NCBI GenBank assembly: GCA_031276835.1
Contig: JAISMI010000001.1
Span: 1-10,636 of the forward strand
Direction: 5' to 3'
Origin: Holosporaceae bacterium
Lineage (GTDB): Bacteria; Pseudomonadota; Alphaproteobacteria; UBA3830
DNA length: 10,636 nt
The notes below the pieces were generated by a model. That model did not search any database and was not told the DNA's origin. It worked only from the letters and a program-made list of their open reading frames with translations. Shown here piece by piece: positions 5,825 to 10,636 of this stretch. How positions within the stretch are numbered: position 1 is the stretch's first letter; each line of letters begins with the position of its first letter. The translations under genes and the position numbers were made by a program.

Positions 5825-6547
5825 TCAAGGTATGAAAAAGGTATTGGAGGTTGCGTCAAATTTCGCTCCCAAACTTATAGCTTTTTCATTTAACGTTTTC
5901 TTCCAACTTGGATCTTTATATTGCTTGAAGAAATTGTAATTCTTGTTTAACTCTTTAACGTTAGTGATTTTTTCTATGGTGTACTCCACGCTTATGCCGG
6001 GGTCTATATCAGATTTATATTCTTCAACTTTTTTAGATTCTTCAACTTTTTTAGATTCTTCAACTACTCCGTATTCTTCTCCGTATCCTTCGTCTAGAAT
6101 ATCGTAGTGCTCTATGAGCTCTAATGCGTCCATATACAAATATCGCTTAACATATGAATCGATAGCCCCCATGCTCTGTATTGGAGTGCATCCCGCTACG
6201 TCGCTGCCAACGAGCGGCATTGTGAATTCGATGGGATTTTGAGAAGCATCTTCCGAGTCATATATCTTCAATGTCGCCATTCCTTTAAGTTCTAGACATG
6301 GTTTGTCTATAAATGATTCTTTACATTTGACTTTTCTTATGGGAGTGGATGTTTCCCCTGTCATAGAAAATACTCCGTACAATCCTAATTCGTTGAAAAT
6401 CTTGTGTAACTGCGGCATAAAGTCCGATAACTTATAATATGCGTATGCTGAAGTCTTAGTTTTTCCGCTCTTTTTAAGATTTAATGCGTCTAGCTTGACC
6501 CTTACTTCTTGCAATTTAGCCCCTATACTCTTTCTATTGTTTTCCAT
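5825..6547 (-). CDS. ERF-family single-strand annealing protein
   Basis: A 240-residue protein of the ERF superfamily: phage and plasmid recombination proteins that bind single-stranded DNA and anneal homologous strands. The N-terminal part carries SAYAYYKLSDFMPQLHKIFNELGLYGVFS. It continues with the strand ATLKIYDSEDA and PLVGSD, then the most conserved element SMGAIDSYVKRYLYMDALEL. A linker of repeated VEESKK units (18-bp repeat at 6019-6064) joins this core to a separate C-terminal segment. AAGGAG precedes the ATG by 8 bases. It is the last gene of the - strand operon starting near 7197, behind the 159-aa gene. The insertion sequence begins directly after its stop, so a trimmed C terminus is possible. 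Confidence 0.85.
   Translation of the reverse strand: MENNRKSIGAKLQEVRVKLDALNLKKSGKTKTSAYAYYKLSDFMPQLHKIFNELGLYGVFSMTGETSTPIRKVKCKESFIDKPCLELKGMATLKIYDSEDASQNPIEFTMPLVGSDVAGCTPIQSMGAIDSYVKRYLYMDALELIEHYDILDEGYGEEYGVVEESKKVEESKKVEEYKSDIDPGISVEYTIEKITNVKELNKNYNFFKQYKDPSWKKTLNEKAISLGAKFDATSNTFFIP
6019..6064 (-). repeat. 18-bp tandem repeat in the ERF linker
   Basis: Units at 6019-6036 and 6037-6054 are identical and a third partial unit runs to 6064. They encode the hexapeptide VEESKK two and a half times, in frame, between the ERF core and its C-terminal segment. Copy number probably varies between relatives. Confidence 0.85.
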
Positions 6548-6609
6548 TTGCTTTTCTCCTTTTCTATTGTTATTGTACTTCTATTCACTATACGCAATAG
6601 CTAGTGTCA

Positions 6610-6643
6610 GCGTTGGGGGACCGCTACTCCCAACGCCTTTTTT
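6610..6643 (+). terminator. Stem-loop with T-run, terminator-like on the + strand
   Basis: GCGTTGGG (6610-6617) pairs perfectly with CCCAACGC (6629-6636) around an 11-base loop, and six T residues follow at 6638-6643. Read on the + strand it is a standard intrinsic terminator, yet no + strand gene ends here. On the - strand the same hairpin lies between the 159-aa gene and the ERF gene without a following T-run, so there it could act as a processing or stability element. Confidence 0.6.
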
Positions 6644-7123
6644 CTATATTAGTGTTGGGTGGTATAGGTCGCGCCATTTCACCACCCCTTCCTCTTCTTC
6701 CTCTTCTTCCTCCTCTTCCCTACGTGGTATATCGGTCATGTCCTTCCTCCACGGATCGCCTTTTTGGCTTCTGTAATATTCTTCGAATTCCGCCGCCTCG
6801 TTATCTACCCGACACTGAATTGAATATTTTGTTTGGTCTAAACAATCTTCTAGCATCCTCTCCGCTTTCCAGAATTTTTCTTGTATGAAATTTTCCAGCT
6901 CTAGCACGTCGCCCCGTTCTATTTCATGGAACAAATCGCTATTGCAGATTTCTAAAACGACGTCCGCTAAATCCTCACTAGATTTAATTTCCTTTAGTTT
7001 AGTAAAGTCTATTCGGTGCGTCCGTGTCTCCTCCGACCAATATATTAACTTCTTCGCTTCCTCTTTCATTGTTGCCTCCTTCATTGTTATTCCTAACCTC
7101 TCTGTTAATTTATTCCCTGTCAT
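6644..7123 (-). CDS. Hypothetical 159-aa acidic protein, first gene of the ERF operon
   Basis: I do not recognise this protein. It is rich in charged residues and apparently soluble. Its middle (SSEDLADVVLEICNSDLFHE, then ENFIQEKFWKAERMLEDCLD) is probably helical. Near the C terminus it has a run of ten glutamates (encoded by the CTTCTTCCT-like repeat around 6688-6719) followed by GVVKWRDLYHP. The ATG at 7123 is supported by the AAGGAGTAAGAAG leader that two other - strand operons share. Further ATGs at codons 14 and 19 are also preceded by purine-rich sequences. It lies about 96 bases upstream of the ERF gene and is driven by the promoter at 7169-7197. By position it may assist the ERF protein, but nothing in the sequence proves this. 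Confidence 0.75.
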   Translation of the reverse strand: MTGNKLTERLGITMKEATMKEEAKKLIYWSEETRTHRIDFTKLKEIKSSEDLADVVLEICNSDLFHEIERGDVLELENFIQEKFWKAERMLEDCLDQTKYSIQCRVDNEAAEFEEYYRSQKGDPWRKDMTDIPRREEEEEEEEEEGVVKWRDLYHPTLI

Positions 7124-7136
7124 CTTCTTACTCCTT
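7121..7136 (-). promoter_or_regulatory. Shared ribosome-binding leader, copy 1
   Basis: AAGGAGTAAGAAGATG, ending in the start codon at 7123. The same 16 bases occur before the genes at 8844 (8842-8857) and 10257 (10255-10270), although the encoded proteins are unrelated by eye. Confidence 0.85.
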
Positions 7137-7143
7137 CGTTAAT

Positions 7144-7177
7144 ATATATACTATACAAGTATATGCATAGTATATAT
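7144..7177. promoter_or_regulatory. Inverted repeat over the start of the 159-aa/ERF operon (operator candidate)
   Basis: The arms ATATATACTATAC (7144-7156) and GCATAGTATATAT (7165-7177) match at 12 of 13 positions. An inner palindrome TATAC-AA-GTATA lies at 7152-7163. The right arm covers the -10 box (7169-7174) and the left part covers the expected transcription start, a place where a bound repressor would block transcription. The neighbouring HTH1 protein is the obvious candidate ligand. Confidence 0.55.
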
Positions 7178-7197
7178 ATTAGTATTTCACATGTCAA
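7169..7197 (-). promoter_or_regulatory. Sigma70-like promoter for the 159-aa/ERF operon
   Basis: TTGACA (7197-7192), a 17-base spacer and TATACT (7174-7169). The -35 box sits in GTATTGACATG, the form shared with the promoters near 7888, 8931 and 10315. Confidence 0.75.
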
Positions 7198-7282
7198 TAC
7201 ATATTTTAAAAAAAATATGAAGATTATTGATTTGTACAAAAAATAGTGATATATAATATAGTTGTGTATTATAGGTATTGAA

Positions 7283-7477
7283 ATGAAATTAACTACGCTT
7301 ATTGATGGAAAAGAGGTTCTGGATACAAAACAAGTATTAGAATTAACTAAATTTAGTAATAGTAAATTGCACGAATTAATGAGACATGATAAATTTATAA
7401 AGCCATTCAGGTACAAAAATAAAAACTTCTGGAAGAAATCAGAAATAGATGCATACATCGAAAATACAAAAAAATAA
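7283..7477 (+). CDS. AlpA/excisionase-like HTH protein, HTH1
   Basis: A 64-residue DNA-binding protein of the MerR-like excisionase/AlpA type. A recognition-helix region (VLDTKQVLELTKFSNSKLHE) is followed by the wing-like FIKPFRYKNKNFWKKSEIDAY, which is the family's usual W-x-x-S-x-I-x-x-[WY] ending. The ATG at 7283 is chosen over an upstream TTG (7262) because AGG lies 7 bases before it and the resulting protein lines up along its whole length with HTH2. A TATAAT at 7252-7257 may be its -10 box. It is divergent from the 159-aa/ERF operon and probably regulates it and itself. Such proteins act as transcription regulators or as excision directionality factors. Confidence 0.85.
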   Translation: MKLTTLIDGKEVLDTKQVLELTKFSNSKLHELMRHDKFIKPFRYKNKNFWKKSEIDAYIENTKK

Positions 7478-7479
7478 AA

Positions 7480-10120: not shown

Positions 10121-10257
10121 TATCCCAACTCTTTTTTTTTATCGGCGTAAGGCCTACTAGATGGGCCGTGCCAATTATAGATTATCCGCAATTCCTCGGA
10201 TAACCTATATACTTCTTCTTGCTCTATCTTTTCCATTTCTTGCTCTATCTTTTCCAT
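10054..10257 (-). CDS. Hypothetical 67-aa protein with duplicated start
   Basis: A small helical, charged protein: EEVYRLSEELRIIYNWHGPS followed by YADKKKELGYYLRYLKEKGI. The first 21 bases of the gene are perfectly duplicated in tandem, so the protein begins MEKIEQEMEKIEQEE. The shared AAGGAGTAAGAAG leader serves the first ATG. It may be distantly related to the 69-aa protein at 8201. The promoter candidate lies at 10287-10315. It is divergent from HTH5. Confidence 0.68.
   Translation of the reverse strand: MEKIEQEMEKIEQEEVYRLSEELRIIYNWHGPSSRPYADKKKELGYYLRYLKEKGITFDTIMQYIKV
10216..10257 (-). repeat. Perfect 21-bp tandem duplication of a gene start
   Basis: 10237-10257 and 10216-10236 are identical, each encoding MEKIEQE including the ATG. 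The copies have not diverged, so the duplication is recent. Confidence 0.9.
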
Positions 10258-10270
10258 CTTCTTACTCCTT
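10255..10270 (-). promoter_or_regulatory. Shared ribosome-binding leader, copy 3
   Basis: AAGGAGTAAGAAGATG, identical to the leaders at 7121-7136 and 8842-8857. Confidence 0.85.
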
Positions 10271-10286
10271 TATAAAGATTATCGTA

Positions 10287-10315
10287 ATTTAATCATACTG
10301 TATTATGAATGTCAA
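10287..10315 (-). promoter_or_regulatory. Promoter of the 67-aa gene with palindrome in the spacer
   Basis: TTGACA (10315-10310) in the shared AGGTATTGACAT context, a 17-base spacer and a weak TTAAAT (10292-10287). The spacer holds ATCATAC-T-GTATTAT (10292-10306), whose arms match at 6 of 7 positions, a good position for a repressor site. Confidence 0.6.
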
Positions 10316-10347
10316 TACCTTTTTTTTATTTTTTTTTATTTTTTTTA

Positions 10348-10376
10348 TTGTTTGTTTGTGTTACTTAATATATCAT
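10348..10376 (+). promoter_or_regulatory. Possible promoter of HTH5
   Basis: TTGTTT (10348-10353), a 17-base spacer and TATCAT (10371-10376), 20 bases before the ATG. Confidence 0.4.
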
Positions 10377-10395
10377 CTAAAAATGGAATGAAGTA

Positions 10396-10596
10396 ATGAA
10401 TGTTTTTAACGAAGAATTAATTACAGCTAAGGAAGTGTGCGACTTTTTAAGGGTTTCTCTGGTTACATTGTGGAATTGGAGAAATAAAGGTATATTCCCC
10501 AATCCTATCAAGATAGACCGAAAGCTTCTCTGGAAGAAATCCGATATCGAAGCCTACCTAAGAGAAAAGCAGGGAAAAGAAGAAAGTAGTATGTGA
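10396..10596 (+). CDS. AlpA/excisionase-like HTH protein, HTH5
   Basis: A 66-residue protein and the most typical AlpA-like member here: LITAKEVCDFLRVSLVTLWN, then RNKGIFPNPIKIDRKLLWKK with the G-x-F-P-x-P turn, then SDIEAYLREKQ. The stretch 10530-10552 is identical over 23 bases to 8146-8168 in HTH2, and the last third is nearly identical to HTH4. It is divergent from the 67-aa gene and followed two bases later by another IRIGEGLS gene start. Confidence 0.9.
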   Translation: MNVFNEELITAKEVCDFLRVSLVTLWNWRNKGIFPNPIKIDRKLLWKKSDIEAYLREKQGKEESSM

Positions 10597-10597
10597 T

Positions 10598-10636
10598 ATG
10601 GAAAATAATGGGATAAGAATAGGAGAAGGTTTGAGT
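10598..10636 (+). CDS. IRIGEGLS gene, copy 2, cut by window end
   Basis: Only 13 codons are visible (MENNGIRIGEGLS). The DNA matches 9989-10033 closely, including the spacing to the HTH stop and the preceding TATGTGATATGG. The full gene would show what copy 1 has lost. Confidence 0.6.
   Translation, partial: MENNGIRIGEGLS

Follow-up and report, generated by a model that had tools for sequence, protein, structure and literature searches.

The right half of a 10,636-base contig from a Holosporaceae bacterium (contig C14, analysed at its full length and referred to here as the window) carries five small helix-turn-helix (HTH) regulator genes, H1–H5, arranged as successive modules. The region is probably part of a lambdoid-like early/immunity region of a prophage, or of a prophage remnant, of a Holosporaceae-type bacterium, enlarged by short-homology recombination into a stack of regulator-promoter modules. 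The modules, a leader and promoter shared between them, copies of the regulator 3′ tail after cargo genes, and a phage context in relatives were all directly seen. An early/immunity region is recognized by a regulator lying opposite early genes, a phage recombinase gene among them. This arrangement was found at H1, which faces the gene g159 and an ERF-family recombinase gene. The five-module array is known from this one genome, which is incomplete (726,662 bases in 99 contigs, 68.6% complete).

The five HTH proteins are HTH_17/AlpA-type paralogs, all encoded on the + strand and spanning positions 7283 to 10596. H2–H5 are 27–52% identical to H1. Pfam scores for H1 and H2 fell below the cut-offs, and these two were assigned to the family because they are paralogous to the other HTH proteins. 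PHROG 66, annotated ‘excisionase and transcriptional regulator’, matched four of the five at E < 1e-5 and H2 at 0.004. Paralogs within the genome were confined to contig C14. In the genomes searched, the HTH profile matched once per contig, except in genomes G000 and G020, while viral contig L139 had two matches, 3.5 kb apart on one strand.

Four of the five HTH genes (H1, H2, H3 and H5) face leftward small genes without detectable kinship. The sequence GTATTGACAT was present in all four facing promoters, and a 16-nt ribosome-binding site (RBS) plus start codon, AAGGAGTAAGAAGATG, was identical before three of the four first facing genes (g159, the DUF6876 gene and g67). This 16-mer occurs three times in the genome, with no exact copy in 48 other genomes of the order. 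The initial annotation had described five paralogous + strand HTH proteins, four of them facing mutually unrelated − strand small genes; this was confirmed, and the case is somewhat stronger than it was put there. Its proposal of one regulator per cargo set, with conserved ends and variable content, also holds, the ends being the leader, the promoter and the HTH tail.

A copy of an HTH-gene tail was found directly after g129, the gene downstream of H3 (Table 1). It is identical to the H4 tail at 26 of 29 positions, whereas the best match elsewhere in the window, H5 aside, reached 20 on the + strand and 21 on the − strand, and the maximum in 300 simulated arrays was 21. Tail copies were likewise found behind accessory genes in two relatives, phage contig L140 (8495–8587, independent E-value (iE) 7.6e-6) and the prophage in G020 (12116–12181, iE 1.2e-10). 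A search of viral contigs for the HTH-tail pattern returned no matches. Codon usage was also compared between the tail and the preceding part of the HTH genes. Within the window, the same codon was used at the same residue in 38/66 cases in the tail versus 47/102 before it; between the window and G020 the counts were 48/72 and 47/100, and between the window and genomes G011, G009 and G003 they were 46/89 and 66/168. The RhuM protein of G020 (locus L034, 11010–11080) was observed to carry 13 extra terminal residues, in frame, that resemble the end of the HTH protein. Its best defence profile halts at residue 331 of 344, the start of this tail-like end.

Relatives place the same regulator family in phages. 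The prophage in G020 and L140, a phage contig with matching ends (an 85-base end repeat), share with the window a core of ERF recombinase, small genes and divergent regulator. In G020 the backbone of HTH gene, small genes and ERF is followed by capsid and tail genes, and L140 and its near-twin L141 carry terminase, tail and lysozyme genes. The array had been judged ‘not an ordinary prophage early region’; with these backbones beside phage head and tail genes, that view holds only in part, and the array most likely represents a phage early/immunity region with unusual stacking. A fixed phage backbone in relatives had been named as what would refute a modular origin. The core order is indeed shared with G020 and L140, but cargo and module number vary between the three. 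Gene order in L140 is HTH, g56-like, g57-like, ERF, whereas in the window g57 is separated from ERF by H1 and g159, which looks like the insertion of a module.

The pairing of one HTH family with different cargo in related genomes, which the initial annotation anticipated, was borne out. Beside the HTH gene were found RhuM and a SocA/Panacea protein in G020, a Fic protein in G011, an XRE-like protein with an IrrE/ImmA-like protein in G009, and a lipoprotein in L140. Arrays of varying length, also anticipated, were seen only twice, as five modules in the window and two plus a remnant in G020; no others were found. Among the best 80 of 443 ERF loci, 75 had no HTH match of at least 15 bits, one had one match and four had two, these four (L140–L143) being treated as one phage. 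Of three HTH loci checked, two had a single HTH match and L139 had two. Six more ERF-bearing loci (L236–L241) were rejected, their best HTH-profile match being partial (14.8 bits, iE 5.4e-4). The first viral matches to the HTH profile (L029–L033) were also set aside: the four viewed (L029, L030, L032 and L033) lay in unrelated settings with no array.

In the mechanism that we propose, the HTH protein, made rightward, would most likely repress the strong sigma-70 promoter facing it, and at H1 an inverted repeat over the −10 box may serve this purpose. The facing promoter would drive the leftward genes, g159 and ERF in the H1 module and small genes elsewhere. Accessory genes that follow the regulator on the same strand would, judging by the relatives, be lysogenic-conversion (‘moron’) genes, presumably expressed in the lysogen. 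Modules and cargo would be gained by recombination at the RBS/start codon, the promoter and the regulator 3′ tail, for which the ERF annealing protein of the same region would be the likeliest agent. According to PMC3945230, Rad52-like phage recombinases, D3 Erf among them, act on DNA of 78% identity with roughly the efficiency of lambda Red, and approximately 30% of the mosaics formed between temperate and/or defective phages are flanked by traces of homology. A more specific scheme may be entertained tentatively, although we consider it doubtful. Phages of this group would exchange cargo cassettes by homology, docking them at the HTH gene itself, with the start-codon leader and the HTH 3′ tail as anchors and with the phages' own ERF protein. 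Each cargo would come with or under its own repressor, the array growing module by module. The scheme would draw on an array of five modules, another of two and a phage with a single module.

Several observations weigh against a prophage immunity region assembled in this way. Pfam and PHROG scans of the 10,636-base contig returned no gene for a phage head or tail. No tail copy was found behind the cargo of G011 or G009, the contig of G003 ends within about 100 bases of the HTH gene, before any cargo, and the G020 RhuM tail by itself gave a weak match (iE 0.02). The apparent codon excess in the tail is modest, comes from non-independent pairs and could reflect protein-level conservation of the in-gene tail. 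Among the modules, a strong inverted repeat is confined to the control region of H1. The promoter motif is retained only in part in relatives, as GGTATTGACA in L140, GGTGTTGACAT in G011 and GTGTTGACT in G009; in G020 it appears as CTTGACAT at one of two regions and is absent from the other, and none was found in G003.

Plain duplication and decay of a phage regulator gene in a degrading prophage, with the tails and short frames as leftovers and no exchange of cargo, would account for some of these features. H4 and H5 share a direct repeat that covers the tail and the beginning of the following gene X (9920–10033 and 10529–10636), the frame after H4 is just 43 residues long and runs into g67, and g129 is a short, diverged ERF-like protein. 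In G020, G001 and L141 a replication-type gene lies beyond ERF; no such gene was found in the window, where an IS110 element is present. Duplication would, however, also copy the facing genes, whereas here an exact start sequence is common to three first genes that show no detectable kinship. The 16-mer is identical even though the regulators have diverged to the extent given above, and relatives pair the same regulator family with different cargo. We regard duplication and decay as an unlikely explanation for the array.

It is more improbable still that the array is a small defence island whose modules are defence or toxin-antitoxin units, each under separate control. The genes that point this way, RhuM (PDC-S05), SocA/Panacea, SoFic and the IrrE/ImmA-like peptidase, lie downstream of the HTH family in relatives only. 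A scan of five cargo proteins of the window, a set without g56, g57 and X, gave no credible defence match; the only one returned was a weak match of g67 to Cas4b (14.1 bits, E 0.0096). One cargo protein, encoded at 9270–9659, is ERF-like, and g56 and g57 are similar to genes that lie next to ERF in phage L140. The suggestion of a ‘stockpile of anti-phage genes’ thus found no support in the window. The PHROG 66 matches would also fit excisionases (recombination directionality factors), each HTH protein deriving from a different integrated element. No integrase was found among the scanned proteins of the window, G020, L140 and L141, the IS110 transposase aside (not every gene was scanned, and attachment repeats were not searched for), and the facing promoters are all conserved, although a directionality factor would have no need of them. 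This origin is very unlikely.

Table 1. Features of the phage part of the window.
Feature	Position	Strand	Basis or remark
ERF-family single-strand annealing protein, 240 aa, last of leftward pair facing H1	5825–6547	−	Pfam ERF 30 bits (cut-off 25); PHROG 155 E 1.3e-16
g159, first gene facing H1	6644–7123	−	Open reading frame (ORF) with shared RBS/start 16-mer; no family at E < 0.05
RBS-plus-start AAGGAGTAAGAAGATG, copy 1	7121–7136	−	Exact match
Inverted repeat, two 18-nt arms, over −10 box of promoter facing H1	7140–7181		94%; candidate operator
Sigma-70-type promoter facing H1, TTGACA-17-TATACT	7169–7197	−	11/12; inside GTATTGACAT
H1, HTH_17/AlpA-like regulator, 64 aa	7283–7477	+	24.7 bits, below HTH_17 cut-off (27) and AlpA cut-off
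g57, second small gene facing H2	7565–7738	−	Similar to 58-aa gene of L140; true start probably internal
g56, first small gene facing H2	7671–7841	−	Similar to 55-aa gene adjoining HTH in L140
Promoter facing H2, TTGACA-16-TATAAT	7861–7888	−	12/12
H2's own promoter, TTGACA-17-TATAAT	7944–7972	+	12/12
H2, HTH_17/AlpA-like regulator, 64 aa	8000–8194	+	22.2 bits, below HTH_17 cut-off (27) and AlpA cut-off
g69, second gene facing H3, 69 aa	8201–8410	−	ORF; no family at E < 0.3
DUF6876 protein, first gene facing H3	8431–8844	−	Pfam PF21781 54.4 bits (cut-off 27)
RBS-plus-start 16-mer, copy 2	8842–8857	−	Exact match
Promoter facing H3, TTGACA-17-TATATT	8903–8931	−	11/12
H3, AlpA-like regulator, 62 aa	9023–9211	+	Phage_AlpA 31.4 bits (cut-off 21)
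g129, short diverged ERF-like protein, downstream of H3	9270–9659	+	Similarity to ERFs
HTH-gene 3′ tail copy after g129	9662–9690	+	26/29 identical to H4 tail; outside ORFs of at least 30 aa
H4, HTH_17 regulator, 67 aa, without divergent partner	9784–9987	+	HTH_17 29.4 bits (cut-off 27)
X′, 43-aa frame starting like X, running into g67 3′ end	9989–10120	+	Repeat of 10598 onwards, 94% over 36 nt
g67, gene facing H5	10054–10257	−	ORF with shared RBS/start
RBS-plus-start 16-mer, copy 3	10255–10270	−	Exact match
Promoter facing H5, TTGACA-18-TAAATT	10286–10315	−	10/12
H5, HTH_17 regulator, 66 aa	10396–10596	+	HTH_17 46.9 bits (cut-off 27)
Gene X start, 39 bases	10598–10636	+	Follows H5; leaves contig

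The cargo genes were compared with those of the relatives and with family databases. The g129 protein lacks the C-terminal part of ERF; it is 32–35% identical to an ERF of G011 (E 5.7e-8 and 6.6e-10 in two comparisons) and 28% identical to that of L140 (E 9e-8), with an E-value of 0.0025 against that of G020. In G011 (contig C9, locus L083, 281–682), an ERF gene was observed to stop early, and by eye its usual C-terminal sequence seems to go on past the stop in another frame. X′ is perhaps a shortened copy of gene X, judging from the sequence repeat. NCBIfam gave no match at E ≤ 0.01 for the DUF6876 protein, g159 or g129. The DUF6876 family occurs in 3 of 385 genomes of the class, this one included, and is uninformative on arrays; it had no match in phages and matched five plasmid records at 28–30% identity. 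A single-sequence fold prediction for the protein was discarded (mean predicted local distance difference test score (pLDDT) 37.6). Similarity of g56 to a small gene of G020 was rejected as too weak alone among 40 or 30 comparisons (shuffle p 0.003 to 0.016, three runs). For g67 against an 82-aa protein of G020, shuffle p was 0.003 and 0.008 (two runs, among 40 and 30 comparisons). G020 (L034, 8099–8921) encodes two adjacent cysteine-rich proteins of 193 and 82 aa, which are mutually related (E 1.7e-5).

A promoter-like sequence was seen by eye directly after the H3 stop codon (9217–9245), and is absent from the promoter-scan matches. Also by eye, CGCTTGA is read in both promoter-like starts of L140 (8300–8960), one following the HTH stop and the other the tail, as it is in TGCTTGAC after H3. 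The scan for terminator-like sites identified only one, at 6610–6636.

The left half of the window is chromosomal. It encodes a DUF4139-like protein (profile score under the cut-off) and, by reading, deformylase- and formyltransferase-like genes in the same order as in G001; a class A RNase P RNA lies left of the phage part (3805–4150, 289 bits). In G001 (L085, 8839–9946), the contig with the deformylase/formyltransferase genes also carries a replication-type gene and an ERF gene that the contig end truncates, which suggests a recurrent phage locus. The phage part of the window opens with an IS110 transposase gene (4673–5653), followed by ERF, and the contig stops at 10636, inside gene X. An IS110-family transposase was observed directly beyond ERF, in the same order and orientation, both in the window and in L140 (10924–11904), with 157 of 315 aligned residues identical. 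The genome holds one copy at E ≤ 1e-20, and 12 of 49 genomes of the order, this one included, have any. It could descend from an old insertion common to both, or be a component of the phage, perhaps its mobility enzyme. No integrase was found among 15 window proteins scanned with Pfam; attC structures were not searched for, and the contig is truncated.

Mosaicism is known to concentrate in phage immunity regions, but its joints are often invisible. Here, the joints seem visible, as identical starts before unrelated genes and as regulator tails behind cargo. If this is true, it would provide a rule, open to testing, by which temperate phages acquire genes under separate repression, and tail copies could serve as a marker for accessory genes in poorly known symbiont phages.

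Such a regulator array is not described in the titles and abstract openings of the literature searched, and the portion of PMC11909080 available holds nothing on such arrays. Like integron cassette arrays, the window has variable content between conserved ends; unlike them, its conserved ends are a gene and the promoter of that gene, and the proteins scanned include no integrase. As with tailed-phage morons, an accessory gene is inserted among phage genes, and the regulator stop is followed at once by a promoter-like sequence (by eye, in the window and L140), but here and in L140 the accessory gene ends in a regulator tail copy. The five proteins belong to the same family as the AlpA and HTH_17 phage regulators (Pfam PF05930 and PF12728), for which profile matches in the genomes searched were single per contig, with the exceptions noted above. 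Another close layout is the lambdoid immunity region (lambda cI-rexAB; CarolAnn genes 43–45), which resembles the window in that a small HTH regulator stands divergent to early genes, a recombinase gene among them, with accessory genes after the regulator. In lambda, rexAB follows cI. The stretch beside the lambdoid repressor is described as a common moron site known for mosaicism (PMC7067206), and defence genes co-expressed with the repressor have been reported (PMC6426606). The window differs from the lambdoid region in having five tandem regulators instead of one, all of the HTH_17/AlpA type, a shared start-codon leader before differing first genes, and copies of the regulator tail after cargo.

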